In this document: positions 533-6,299 of the stretch, piece by piece
Layout: each line of letters starts with the position of its first letter
Position numbering within the stretch: position 1 is the first letter of the stretch
NCBI GenBank assembly: GCA_016928395.1
Contig: JAFGKV010000142.1
Coordinates: 1-6,299, forward strand
Source: Candidatus Fermentibacterota bacterium
GTDB lineage: Bacteria; JAFGKV01
Reading direction: 5' to 3'
DNA: 6,299 nucleotides
The notes under the pieces: generated by a model
What the model saw: only the letters and a program-made list of their open reading frames with translations
Told to the model about the DNA's origin: nothing
The model's database searches: none
Made by a program: the position numbers and the translations under genes

Positions 533-547
533 GTTCTAACCTCTTTG

Positions 548-576
548 TTGACACCGGAGGCTGTGTGCGCATACAT
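548..576 (+). promoter_or_regulatory. Putative promoter of the vapBC operon
   Basis: A perfect TTGACA lies at 548-553. At a 16-bp spacing there is CATACA (570-575), which keeps only the ATA core of a -10 box. The -10 region overlaps the palindromic operator candidate at 568-589, an arrangement typical of autorepressed toxin-antitoxin operons. The -35 match is strong and the -10 is weak. Confidence 0.4.
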
Positions 577-589
577 GCATACGTATGCG
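568..589. promoter_or_regulatory. Palindromic operator, probable RHH antitoxin binding site
   Basis: CGCATAC (568-574) and GTATGCG (583-589) form a 7-bp inverted repeat. Inside it, GCATACGTATGC (577-588) is a perfect 12-bp palindrome, and GCATAC recurs directly at 569 and 577, 8 bp apart. Tandem short half-sites overlapping the promoter are the usual binding mode of ribbon-helix-helix antitoxins, which repress their own operon. It also sits upstream of the divergent RelE/ParE toxin gene, so it could affect both directions. Binding is inferred. Confidence 0.55.
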
Positions 590-598
590 GAGGTGATC
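589..598 (+). promoter_or_regulatory. Extended Shine-Dalgarno fixing the vapB start
   Basis: GGAGGTGATC is an unusually complete match to the 16S rRNA 3' end. Its GGAGG core lies 5 nt before the ATG at 599, which fixes that ATG as the start rather than the in-frame TTG at 545. Confidence 0.85.
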
Positions 599-856
599 AT
601 GGATAGGATCTTGTCGCTCAGAGTGAGTGAGGCAACGGCAGGGCAGGTCACGGCCCTGGCCCGCAGGCTCAAAGCATCGAAGAAGCGCGTGATCGAAAGC
701 GCAGTGAGCAGATACGCCGCGGAGGTCGAGGCTGAAACCAGGAGAGATGTGTTCGAGGAGACCTGTGGCGCATGGAGTCGGGAAGAGGATCCCGGCCTAC
801 TGACGGAGGAATCACGGAAGGCATTTCGGGAATCCATGGAGAAGCGCCAGTCATGA
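599..856 (+). CDS. vapB: Ribbon-helix-helix antitoxin (VapB-type)
   Basis: An 85-residue antitoxin expected to dimerise through its N-terminus, bind its own operator and neutralise the PIN toxin with its C-terminus. Residues 2-12 (DRILSLRVSEA) are the RHH beta-strand, and residues 13-45 form the two helices (QVTALARRLKASKKRVIESAVSRY). The tail carries the pattern FEETCGAW...FRESMEKRQ, typical of toxin-wrapping C-termini in this antitoxin group. The start ATG is set by a near-perfect ribosome binding site; an in-frame extension to TTG at 545 would place coding sequence over the promoter and operator and is not supported. The TGA stop overlaps the ATG of the PIN gene (ATGA, 853-856), indicating translational coupling. 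The specific name vapB rests on the PIN partner. Confidence 0.85.
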   Translation: MDRILSLRVSEATAGQVTALARRLKASKKRVIESAVSRYAAEVEAETRRDVFEETCGAWSREEDPGLLTEESRKAFRESMEKRQS

Positions 857-1236
857 GGGCATATGTAGACGCCGATGTTCTGATCTGGCACTTGCGTGGC
901 GATCGCCGGGCTCTGCGGTTCCTCAAACGCATGAGGGACACTGCCGGATGCGAACTATGGATCGGTGCGATGCAGCGTGCGGAGGTTGTGTTCTTCATGC
1001 GGCCAGAGGAAGAAGACTCGACGGTGCTGTTTCTTTCTCAGTTCCGGACGGCTCCGGTCGATCAGACGATCGTCGACCGTGCGGCTACGCTCTACCGCAC
1101 ATGGCATCCGAGCCATGGGATTGATCCGAACGACGCGATCCTGGCGGCCACGACTATCGAGACCGGTGGTCAGATCTACTGCCTGAACACGAAGCATTAC
1201 CCGATGCCTGCGGTTGTCGCCAAGAAAGCCTGGTAG
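853..1236 (+). CDS. vapC: PIN-domain ribonuclease toxin (VapC-type)
   Basis: A 127-residue PIN-domain protein, the usual VapC length. VapC toxins are Mg2+-dependent endoribonucleases that cleave tRNA or rRNA and are blocked by the cognate VapB. Visible acidic active-site positions are D6 and D8 in YVDADVLIWHLRG, E44 in QRAEVVFF and D94 in GIDPNDAILAATT. The last conserved stretch, CLNTKHYPM (residues 110-118), has the LNTKHYP form seen in many PIN toxins, with no acid at the fourth position. The start ATG at 853 overlaps the antitoxin stop by 4 nt; a longer in-frame start at 772 would overlap most of the antitoxin tail and adds no family-like sequence. All canonical N-terminal and central acids are present, so it looks intact and active. 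Confidence 0.92.
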   Translation: MRAYVDADVLIWHLRGDRRALRFLKRMRDTAGCELWIGAMQRAEVVFFMRPEEEDSTVLFLSQFRTAPVDQTIVDRAATLYRTWHPSHGIDPNDAILAATTIETGGQIYCLNTKHYPMPAVVAKKAW

Positions 1237-2822: not shown

Positions 2823-2896
2823 CCCGTAGATCGTGGCCGGCCCGATGGCGATGGCGATAGCGACCCGGCGGGCGACCAGGGACGGTCGCCCCCAAG
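2823..2896 (+). repeat. Degenerate repeat unit B0
   Basis: CCCGTAGATCGTGGCCGGCC, then GATGGCGATGGCGATAGCGAC hexamers in shortened form, then the GGGCGACC..GGTCGCCC hairpin. It lacks the left GTAGGGGCG end and the first hairpin, as does A0. Confidence 0.7.
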
Positions 2897-2921
2897 GCTA
2901 TTGGTTGACCATCGGACACCC

Positions 2922-3036
2922 GTAGGGGCGGGACACTGTGCCCGCCCGCACGGATCGTGGGCCGATGCCGATGCCGATGGCGATAGCGACTCCCCGCCCC
3001 GAACCCCCGCGGGCGACCAGAGACGGTCGCCCCTAC
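2922..3036 (+). repeat. Full repeat unit B1 (115 bp)
   Basis: Same ends (GTAGGGGCG / CGCCCCTAC) and both hairpins as A1, but with five hexamers: GCCGAT three times, GGCGAT, AGCGAC. It is exactly 6 bp shorter than the six-hexamer units. Confidence 0.85.
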
Positions 3037-3061
3037 GAGGAAGGGTTGACCACCGACCCCC

Positions 3062-3182
3062 GTAGGGGCGGGACGCTGTGCCCGCCCGCACGGATCGTGG
3101 GCTGATGCCGATGGCGATACCGATACCGATAGCGACTCCCCGCCCCGAACCCCCGCGGGCGACCAGAGACGGTCGCCCCTAC
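3062..3182 (+). repeat. Full repeat unit B2 (121 bp)
   Basis: Same ends and hairpins, with six hexamers: GCTGAT, GCCGAT, GGCGAT, ACCGAT, ACCGAT, AGCGAC. It is the last unit of cluster B. Confidence 0.85.
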
Positions 3183-3187
3183 GACGA

Positions 3188-3247
3188 AGGGTTGCCGCAC
3201 TCTCAACCCTGAGAAATCTGAACGCGTCCCGCGCCTTCAGGGGCGCG
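3188..3247. other. Two short hairpins right of cluster B
   Basis: AGGGTTG (3188-3194) pairs with CAACCCT (3204-3210) across a 9-nt loop; the left arm is repeat-derived. CGCGCC (3230-3235) pairs with GGCGCG (3242-3247) across 6 nt. Neither is followed by a T run, so I do not call them terminators. Confidence 0.4.
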
Positions 3248-3610: not shown

Positions 3611-3784
3611 GAGTCGCCCGGGCACATGCAATCACCATAGATACCTCAGAGTCGACAGTATCGCTGGATTGGATCACCGCCCCGCCCGCGTTCAGTGGCG
3701 GGCCTGTTCTCTTCGCCCCATGGATCGCCCCTTCTCCTACTCCCATGGACAGGCTATCTTATTTGCACGTCACACACCGCATAC

Positions 3785-6136
3785 ATGGGCCCCTCACGGA
3801 GCGAGGAACGCGTGGCAGGTGGGAAGCTCTCCTTCGCAACCATCGATTCGCGGCATGAAGAACTCCTGGCCGGGCTGCCCAAGGCCCCGAAGCCGGCAGC
3901 GCTGAAGCTCATTGCCCACCTCGCCGACCTGCCGGATCTTGTGACGTATCCTCCTGCGCTCTACTACCAGGTCGACACATTGCACAGGCTCGTCGATCTC
4001 GTGTTGGATCCATTCCCCCTCACCAGCAATCTCCCGCTGCTCACGGACCTTCTCTCCCTCCTGGCGGGCCTGCCCGAGCCGATCGCCGCCCGGCTGCCCC
4101 GATTGCCCGAGGCCCGGGCGCGCCTCGGCGCGCTGCGGTGTCTCGAGCTGGCCGCCCAAGACGACTGGGAGGCGGCAAAGCACGCCCTCCCTGCCGGCGC
4201 GGACGTTGGGACCGCCGAATCGCAGGACATGGATCTGTTACTGGGCTCCCTCGGCGTGCTTCTCCGAGGTGGCGGCGCGGTATGGCCTTTTCATGTGCGG
4301 CCCATCCGAACCCTCTCGCCGGGCACCGTGCTCACCGTATTGGTTGATGGTGAGGGTGTTCCTCCGGAGTGCCGCGAAGCATACCTGGCCACGGTGAACG
4401 CTTCAGTCCACCTGAAGCGATGCTCGCAACCGGGGCCGCCCGTGGTGCGCTCCGTCAGCGATCGCGGAGAAGAACTAGTGGTGGGAGAAGACCTCAGGGA
4501 TCTCGTGATCGAGGCGTTGGATCGCACCACGGCTCTGCTGGGCCCCCAAGTGCATGCAAAGCTGCGAACCAGCCAGACGGAGGTCATCCTGGCAATCAGG
4601 CATCCGGCTCCGGTGACGGAGGTGACGGGACGATCCATCCTGCTGCCTCTGATCATCGCTCTGGCCCAGGCCCTGGGTGAACGCCTCAACCTCTCGGCGG
4701 TGGTGCGGGCGGACAGCGGCGTGGTGTGGACAGGGGATGTGGATTCCTACGGGTCGCTGGAGGCCGTGTCGCACATCGAGGAAAAGATCCACCGGGTGGC
4801 ATACTCGCGCTGCAAGGGCTTTGCGTTTCCGGCGCAACAACTGGAGGAAGTAAACGACGCCATCGGCTCAGGCAAAGCCGGAAGGGTTCTCGATGCGATT
4901 CCCGTGACGAACCTGGTGGATCTCCTCGGCCGGGTTTCGGCGGTGTCCATTCAGAGCCGGGGTACTGCCGTTCGCGCCGGCGTGGCGATCAAAAGAAGGG
5001 CCAGGCCGCTGGGGATTGCGGGAGTTGCGGCGGCAGGACTGCTCATCGTGGCTCTGGGCATCGGCCTCCCCCGCATCGCCTCCTGGCTGGACACCACGGT
5101 TGCCTCCGCCGCCTTCACCGAAACCCGCGACAAGATTCAGGTCTTCAATGCCTCCGGCCGCGGGCTGCGGTCGTTCCCCATCGTGCCGACGGAGGGGTTT
5201 CGGGTCTTGGCCATCGACGTCGACCTCGACGGACGTCGCGAGATCTTCTACGGCACGGGAGTCCGCGATTCCGTGCCCGGCACGCTCTTCTGCCTCGACG
5301 ATCACGGCAGAGAACGCTGGAGGTTTCGCGGCGGGTTTCGCGAGGGCGAGCCGAAACCCTACGACCTCCGCAACACATTCAGCGCCGGCGGCCCCTACGT
5401 GCATGATCTGGATCATGACGGGCTCAACGAGGTGGTGGCGGTGTTCAACCATTCGCCCTACTCCCCTGGGCAACTGGCGCTGCTGACTCGCGAGGGCGAG
5501 TACTTGAGCAGCTTCTGGCATCCGGGAGCGCTCTACGGCGCGCCGCTGTCCAATGACATGCATGCCGCCGCCTTCGTTGACATCGACCATGACGGCCTGG
5601 ATGAGATTCTCATCGGGGCCACGAACAACCGGCTCAACATGCCGGTGCTGGCCATTCTGGATCCGCGGTCGATCAGGGGAAAGGGGCCGATGTCCCTCGA
5701 CGATACGACCGGTGCGAGATGGCAGAGCTATGTCGTGTTCCCCGCATGCCCGCCATTCGAGGAGACGGCGTCCACGGTGGCAAGGCTCGCGGTAATGGAG
5801 GTCAAAGCCATCCGGTGGGAAGGGCAGGACGCGCTCCGGGTAAGCTCATCGGGATACGCGCCGGACGGCACGCTCTGCGGGTTCGCCTACCATCTGGACT
5901 ATGATCTGAACCTCTTGTGGTACAATGCCAACGATCAGATCTTGAAGTGGATTCGCCGCGCGCGACGGCGGGGCGAGACCGATGCCGATGTCGACTCCCC
6001 GGAGTTCCGCCGGATGATGACCGACATCCGGATCATCCCGGGAGATCCGGCGCTGCTCGTGCCACCGGAAAAGGGGTTCCGCCTGATTCCGCGGAAGCCC
6101 TCCACGGCTCCTGGCACGGGTTGGGAACCCTCGTGA
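3785..6136 (+). CDS. Lon-like (pseudo)protease domain - TM - FG-GAP/VCBS-like membrane protein
   Basis: 783 residues from ATG 3785. Residues 15-145 are helical and leucine-rich (HEELLAGLPKAPKPAALKL). Residues about 215-385 resemble the Lon (S16) proteolytic domain: VVGEDLRDLVIEALDRTT, then VTGRSILLPLIIALAQALGE spaced like Lon's GPSAG helix (candidate Ser S284), then HIEEKIHRVAYSRCKGFAFP like Lon's GGLKEK...IP, and LDAIPVTNLVDLL like Lon's end. E332 sits at the catalytic Lys position, so peptidase activity is doubtful. A single TM helix (about 409-429), preceded by KRRAR, suggests a cytoplasmic N-terminus and extracytoplasmic C-terminus. Three calcium-type loops follow: DVDLDGRRE (478-486), DLDHDGLNE (541-549), DIDHDGLDE (599-607), typical of FG-GAP/VCBS propeller blades. 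GTG 3812 is an alternative start with GAGG 5 nt upstream; 3785 matches the paralogue's N-terminal length better. The frame opens at 3695. Overall function unknown. Confidence 0.85.
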   Translation: MGPSRSEERVAGGKLSFATIDSRHEELLAGLPKAPKPAALKLIAHLADLPDLVTYPPALYYQVDTLHRLVDLVLDPFPLTSNLPLLTDLLSLLAGLPEPIAARLPRLPEARARLGALRCLELAAQDDWEAAKHALPAGADVGTAESQDMDLLLGSLGVLLRGGGAVWPFHVRPIRTLSPGTVLTVLVDGEGVPPECREAYLATVNASVHLKRCSQPGPPVVRSVSDRGEELVVGEDLRDLVIEALDRTTALLGPQVHAKLRTSQTEVILAIRHPAPVTEVTGRSILLPLIIALAQALGERLNLSAVVRADSGVVWTGDVDSYGSLEAVSHIEEKIHRVAYSRCKGFAFPAQQLEEVNDAIGSGKAGRVLDAIPVTNLVDLLGRVSAVSIQSRGTAVRAGVAIKRRARPLGIAGVAAAGLLIVALGIGLPRIASWLDTTVASAAFTETRDKIQVFNASGRGLRSFPIVPTEGFRVLAIDVDLDGRREIFYGTGVRDSVPGTLFCLDDHGRERWRFRGGFREGEPKPYDLRNTFSAGGPYVHDLDHDGLNEVVAVFNHSPYSPGQLALLTREGEYLSSFWHPGALYGAPLSNDMHAAAFVDIDHDGLDEILIGATNNRLNMPVLAILDPRSIRGKGPMSLDDTTGARWQSYVVFPACPPFEETASTVARLAVMEVKAIRWEGQDALRVSSSGYAPDGTLCGFAYHLDYDLNLLWYNANDQILKWIRRARRRGETDADVDSPEFRRMMTDIRIIPGDPALLVPPEKGFRLIPRKPSTAPGTGWEPS

Positions 6137-6299
6137 GCTCCCCTTCGGACTTCTCCGGTAGCCTTCCGTCCGTTTCGCCGCAAGAGCTTGACGAACTCCA
6201 CGGCGAGCTGCTGGCCGGGCTGGAAAACCTGAGCCCCAAGGCCGCAGCCATCCGCCTCATGGCCTATCTCCGAGGCCTGCCCCCTGTCACGACACACCC
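6133..6299 (+). CDS. Tandem paralogue of the preceding gene, N-terminal fragment
   Basis: It starts at GTG 6133, overlapping the preceding TGA by 4 nt (GTGA), and runs off the window after 55 codons. Residues 23-55 (HGELLAGLENLSPKAAAIRL onward, ending LPPVTTHP) align with residues 24-57 of the upstream protein (HEELLAGLPKAPKPAALKL onward, ending LPDLVTYPP), with about 20 identities and two single-residue gaps. The two genes therefore share at least the N-terminal helical module and are probably a tandem duplication translated by coupling. No clear Shine-Dalgarno precedes the GTG; a small GGGTT/AACCC inverted repeat lies at 6118-6130. Whether the Lon-like, TM and propeller parts are also present lies outside the window. 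Confidence 0.8.
   Translation, partial: MSSPSDFSGSLPSVSPQELDELHGELLAGLENLSPKAAAIRLMAYLRGLPPVTTH

Follow-up and report, generated by a model that had tools for sequence, protein, structure and literature searches.

A Lon-like proteolytic domain joined through one transmembrane helix to an FG-GAP ectodomain in a putative receptor family

Lon-type proteolysis normally means ATP-driven degradation, and the question raised by this locus is what a Lon-like domain might do in a protein that carries a membrane helix and an FG-GAP domain and in which no AAA+ module is found. The window, which is the entire 6299-bp contig C182 from a 4.79-Mb genome bin, contains an ORF at 3695–6136 (+) of up to 813 aa, counted from GTG 3695. 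Its frame is open from 3641, GTG 3695 is the earliest start, and the stop codon occupies 6134–6136. Because homologue alignments begin at about aa 45, a start near 3785–3812, at ATG 3785 or GTG 3812, is more likely than GTG 3695. The preliminary description had given the span as 4415–6136; the gene is indeed there, but 4415 falls inside it and is not its start. Residue numbers of the receptor (Ser314, Lys364, TM 439–457) count from GTG 3695 throughout. The domain order, with coordinates in Table 1, is a helical N-terminal domain, a Lon-like domain, one TM helix, and an FG-GAP ectodomain. The N-terminal domain is helical in the AlphaFold2 (AF2) model and was assigned no known fold, and its profile, A3, matches family members only, bar one weak match. 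A PDB phmmer match of aa 139–193 to designed TIM barrels was judged to be chance, with single stretches at E about 1 or worse.

Table 1. Features of the Lon-receptor gene and of its tandem copy, in window coordinates
Feature	Position	Strand	Basis
Whole gene, Lon-like transmembrane receptor	3785..6136	+	ORF list, translation, homologue alignment
N-terminal helical domain, kept across family	3827..4279	+	Profile A3; AF2 model
Lon (S16) proteolytic-domain-like region, aa ~205–419	4307..4951	+	AF2, Foldseek/VIA, hhalign
Putative catalytic Ser314 codon (TGRS; aligned with Lon GPSAG serine)	4634..4636	+	33/33 conserved
Putative catalytic Lys364 codon (IEEK; aligned with Lon dyad lysine)	4784..4786	+	33/33 conserved
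Single TM helix, aa 439–457, N-in/C-out by charge	5009..5065	+	Hydropathy, charge
Extracytoplasmic FG-GAP beta-propeller-like domain	5102..6064	+	Pfam; beta-rich in AF2 model
DxDxDG loop 1 (DVDLDG), aa 508–513	5216..5233	+	Translation
DxDxDG loop 2 (DLDHDG), aa 571–576	5405..5422	+	Translation
DxDxDG loop 3 (DIDHDG), aa 629–634	5579..5596	+	Translation
Second tandem copy, 5′ part, ends at contig end	6133..6299	+	N-domain profile E 2.8e-9 at 6178–6297; sequence; L019 pair

Does the region of aa ~205–419 belong with the Lon proteolytic domains? Pfam did not detect a Lon domain in the window protein, and direct searches of NCBIfam and of PDB sequences found it barely or not at all; profile–profile and fold comparisons alone were decisive. 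When 33 relatives were compared with 26 Lon proteases, hhalign gave 99.1% (E 5.5e-19) and a score of 127.8, with none of 50 column shuffles scoring above 21, and its alignment set TGRS against the Lon GPSAG motif and the lysine of EEK against that of Lon. With an AF2 model of aa 205–419 made without templates (pTM 0.78), the best Foldseek E was 2.1e-11 and the matches listed were all Lon proteolytic domains or RadA; VIA gave Z up to 17.6 with RadA among the top structure matches, and the full-length AF2 model led to the same structural result. A profile of seven relatives (A2) had Lon proteases as its eight best matches among PDB sequences, at weak E values of 0.18–0.8, and in a profile search of 193 genomes the translated matches outside the family were Lon proteases that carry a GPSAG or a GDSAS motif. 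One relative of the same architecture, L094, passed the Pfam Lon_C cut-off on its own sequence (E 1.9e-7). Judged by profiles and models, the window domain is a member of the Lon proteolytic-domain superfamily. The preliminary description had made the same assignment to Lon S16 for the middle of the protein, and profile, structural and comparative evidence bears it out: its GxS helix is TGRSILLP with Ser314, its KEK-like helix and hydrophobic strand ending in P are EEK (Lys364) followed by GFAFP, and its LDxxPV...LL end is VLDAIPVTNLVDLL. The Foldseek check it had proposed on an AlphaFold model is the one reported above, and neither a model without the Lon fold nor a different family in the profile searches was encountered.

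Few columns are invariant across the family alignment, yet Ser314 and Lys364, which align with the Lon catalytic dyad, are both kept in 33/33 relatives. The window lineage has a divergent GRS motif, and most relatives have a LonB/LonC-like GDS motif. As had been noted at the outset, the window protein has no AAA+ match in Pfam, and a Walker A motif is found in none of the 33 relatives. Judging from these conserved residues, the Lon-type domain is apparently an active protease.

On hydropathy, the strongest hydrophobic segment lies between the Lon domain and the ectodomain in 33/33 relatives, some of which also show a second, lower peak, in most cases close to the GxS helix, and the N-side flank of the TM helix is the more positive one in 32/33. 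Because of this position and this flank charge, the Lon domain is predicted to be cytoplasmic and the FG-GAP domain extracytoplasmic. A single TM helix after the Lon domain and three DxDxDG loops were already part of the preliminary description, and hydropathy and translation agree with both. The linker between the Lon domain and the TM helix has low pLDDT in the AF2 model. Pfam matched the ectodomain with FG-GAP_3 (PF13517; 1.7e-8, 35.4 bits, cut-off 26.9) and FG-GAP (PF01839; 1.6e-5, 25.1 bits, cut-off 22.1), and its repeats and beta content suggest that it would fold as a closed propeller. At L098:4187–6532 (−), a Ser/Thr kinase is followed by a TM segment and an ectodomain with homology to the one in the Lon receptors (27% over 189 aa, E 1e-10), which indicates a modular sensor on which one enzyme may be swapped for another; a kinase on this ectodomain is as expected for a sensor and counts for a receptor reading.

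We find that the architecture is no isolated case, since there are dozens of homologues in several phyla, and the suggested search of other genomes for the same domain order found it in other phyla. This distribution rests on 1560 genome searches. The first relative beyond the window's family of bins is L060 in G173 (24% over 430 aa, E 6e-9), with homology that spans the Lon domain, TM and ectodomain and with a BLAST E of 8e-14 between L018 and L060. Iterated searches added about 45 matches, mostly spanning the same three parts, from many families around G299; those around G240 were weaker. A genome-contig scan returned no match with the single protein and same-family MAGs only with the alignment, and there was no plasmid match; the true range of the architecture is probably larger than found. 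The split between Lon proteases and all family members in a Lon-domain tree is weak (82/51), so the common origin of the family is argued mainly from the BLAST matches over the Lon domain, TM and ectodomain. In the G240 homologue, an in-frame TAA lies inside the ectodomain (L094:5721–5723) and the frame runs on to 6392; sequencing error, decay and a real stop are candidate readings.

The window's own genome has four Lon-receptor copies, which are the window gene, those on C341 and C170, and a fragment on C209. The last 167 bases of the window begin a second copy, whose GTG overlaps the TGA stop of the first gene. A same-genus bin has an orthologous pair in tandem (L019), followed by a polysaccharide deacetylase gene, apparently the one that also lies beside the C209 fragment, and for this reason C182 and C209 are probably neighbors, with the second tandem copy continuing on C209.

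In other phyla the usual gene order is gene1, gene2 (an anti-sigma-like HxxxCxxC protein), the Lon receptor (gene3), and a large secreted protein (gene4). In 13 of the 20 neighborhoods examined, an HxxxCxxC protein is encoded beside the Lon receptor and in the same orientation, and some of those without one end at contig ends or frame breaks. The gap between gene2 and gene3 is usually 3 nt, and the HxxxCxxC motif is invariant in 15/15 aligned proteins, on which Pfam zf-HC2 matches are weak (5/15 members, best 0.002). Usually upstream of gene2, gene1 encodes ~365 aa and belongs to a family of helical-looking proteins (L137–L154, e.g., L140:6837–7919) that has no convincing match in Pfam, NCBIfam or PDB. 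To the eye it is plausible as a divergent sigma factor, an idea left unsupported by these searches and by an hhalign result of 1.1% (E 0.05). At the own-genome copy L018, a sigma-70 ECF gene occupies the gene1 position, and the gene after it encodes a protein homologous to the zinc protein (E 2.5e-5). Within the window lineage L018 is the one copy seen beside such a pair. Neither the window gene nor L016, L020 or the second copies of the tandems has one as a neighbor, and the L010 neighborhood is cut by its contig. Beside the window copy, gene1 and gene2 are absent from the contig. The downstream gene4 product often has propeller repeats, of the FG-GAP kind or another, together with Por_Secre_tail/FlgD_ig ends, and a type-IX-like tail motif is found in 10 of 15 next genes, compared with 2 of the 43 other long ORFs that these loci contain. 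On C341 the gene immediately before the Lon receptor, L016:4526–7363 (+), encodes a secreted FG-GAP protein whose end resembles Por_Secre_tail.

With the domain order, Lon homology, dyad conservation, predicted topology and operon conservation described above, what might such a protein do? The combination of outer sensor, TM helix and ATP-independent protease, encoded beside a protein that resembles an anti-sigma factor, suggests that a signal controls the cleavage of this neighbor, and we give a little under an even chance to a single-pass inner-membrane receptor protease that cleaves a cytosolic regulator such as gene2 to alter transcription. As we infer its catalysis, oligomer, ligand, substrate and output, the beta-propeller-like ectodomain on the outer face would sense an envelope or surface cue, the TM helix would relay the signal inward, and the cytosolic Lon-fold domain with its Ser-Lys dyad would cut a specific cytosolic regulator without ATP. 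The likeliest substrate class would be the HxxxCxxC anti-sigma-like protein, encoded beside most homologues; its cleavage would release the ECF sigma factor in the case of the own-genome paralogue, or the gene1 protein in other phyla, and the factor set free would alter transcription, possibly that of the secreted protein encoded alongside. Because neighboring gene1 and gene2 are absent, the window copy and its tandem twin would act in trans. The preliminary description had proposed a sensor that connects a propeller on the outside with a Lon domain on the inside; its architectural part is supported by profile, structure and comparison, and its sensor part stands as the best reading. Possible, and in our estimation rather doubtful, is that these proteins form a widespread, so far undescribed receptor class with an ATP-independent Lon protease in the place of the kinase, in which the outer propeller would sense the envelope or the co-encoded secreted protein, regulated cleavage of the cytosolic zinc anti-sigma-like protein would reprogram transcription, and the whole would be a transmembrane, non-CRISPR counterpart of CalpL.

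The secreted gene4 directly downstream, with the tail-motif enrichment given above, would also fit a non-signaling, membrane-tethered housekeeping or quality-control protease for membrane or secreted proteins such as gene4, and YlbL is a precedent for a membrane-anchored, AAA+-less Lon-type protease that acts on a membrane protein (PMC6051672). However, the protease side is predicted to be cytosolic and an unfoldase is absent, the zinc-motif gene2 fits regulation better, and the paralogues and the kinase-swapped version fit signaling; we regard a housekeeping role as unlikely. A self-cleaving switch, in which the Lon-like domain would process its own chain and free a cytosolic or outer part of the receptor, draws on the low pLDDT of the linker before the TM helix and on the autoprocessing precedents that exist among Ser-Lys proteases, but the linked gene2 offers an external substrate, and we think self-cleavage quite improbable.

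The Lon-like domain could also be a non-enzymatic scaffold, ring-forming or binding, like the Lon-fold domain of RadA, which stands at the top of the structure matches; the GRS motif is divergent in the window lineage, and conserved residues can serve structure. Against this, the aligned Ser and Lys persist across phyla in an alignment with few invariant columns, and a scaffold seems to us improbable. We know of no Ser-Lys dyad in the RadA Lon-like domain, whereas the Lon-receptor relatives conserve theirs in every case. Where "sensor or scaffold" had been offered, we keep the sensor and, because of the dyad kept in 33/33, favor a protease over a scaffold.

How does the proposed receptor protease compare with known systems? 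Activated CalpL, a Lon protease, cuts the anti-sigma CalpT bound to the ECF sigma CalpS (PMC11417357), and this type III CRISPR-associated trio likewise has a Lon-type protease on a sensor with anti-sigma and ECF sigma partners. CalpL differs in sensing cA4 by a SAVED domain, whereas the window protein combines a TM helix with an FG-GAP ectodomain, and Pfam gave it only FG-GAP/propeller families at E<=1 and no SAVED domain. CalpL-type ECF sigma/anti-sigma linkage is present at L018 and absent beside the window gene, and elsewhere gene1 is not recognizable as a sigma factor. Membrane-anchored Lon-type proteases without AAA+ exist in YlbL (PMC6051672), a TM-PDZ-Lon protein of Bacillus that shares with the window protein the anchor and a Lon-type domain with Ser-Lys dyad but has a PDZ domain, for which the window protein has no Pfam match, and likely acts outside the membrane, whereas here the Lon side is predicted cytosolic and the propeller outside. 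LonC is an example of Lon-type proteolysis that proceeds without ATPase activity (PMC3391209); LonC/MtaLonC resemble the family in lacking ATP-driven unfolding and in the GDS motif common to most relatives, but keep a degenerate AAA+ region and have no TM-propeller fusion. LonA/LonB (MEROPS S16) share the proteolytic-domain fold and dyad, whereas the window protein has neither the AAA+ module of LonA/LonB proteases proper nor a LON N-domain. The RadA/Sms C-terminal Lon-like domain is alike in fold (VIA Z 17.6), but RadA has a RecA-type ATPase and the window protein has no Walker A and no Pfam match for such an ATPase. Transmembrane Ser/Thr receptor kinases such as L098, with its homologous ectodomain, and PknS of the Xanthomonas PknS-EcfK system, which activates an ECF sigma factor (PMC13147305), have the same plan of cytosolic enzyme, TM and outer sensor and differ in that the enzyme is a kinase. 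A 2008 survey of prokaryotic serine proteases lists FG-GAP with trypsin, and AAA+, Sigma54_activat, Mg_chelatase, DnaB_C and PDZ as Lon partners (PMC2605481); we found no description of a Lon domain joined to FG-GAP among open-licence papers. A Lon domain that served a transmembrane receptor as its output on the cytosolic side would represent a signaling principle of its own, with one-step transmembrane control of proteolysis in contrast to the several membrane proteases of classical anti-sigma pathways. The conserved operon, found in several phyla and mostly unannotated by Pfam and NCBIfam, offers ready test systems and suggests that the CRISPR CalpL trio may be one case of a broader Lon/anti-sigma/sigma theme.

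Elsewhere in the window, Pfam identifies a ParE-type toxin gene at 278–532 (−) and, at 545–853 (+), an RHH-like antitoxin candidate that overlaps a PIN-domain gene at 772–1236 (+). A HEPN and nucleotidyltransferase (MNT) pair at 1777–2166 (−) and 2147–2605 (−) has a typical toxin-antitoxin arrangement, and it is flanked by two blocks (1445–1787 and 2859–3207) of an intergenic repeat of ~146 bp that is GC-rich and contains CCGATA/CCGATG runs.
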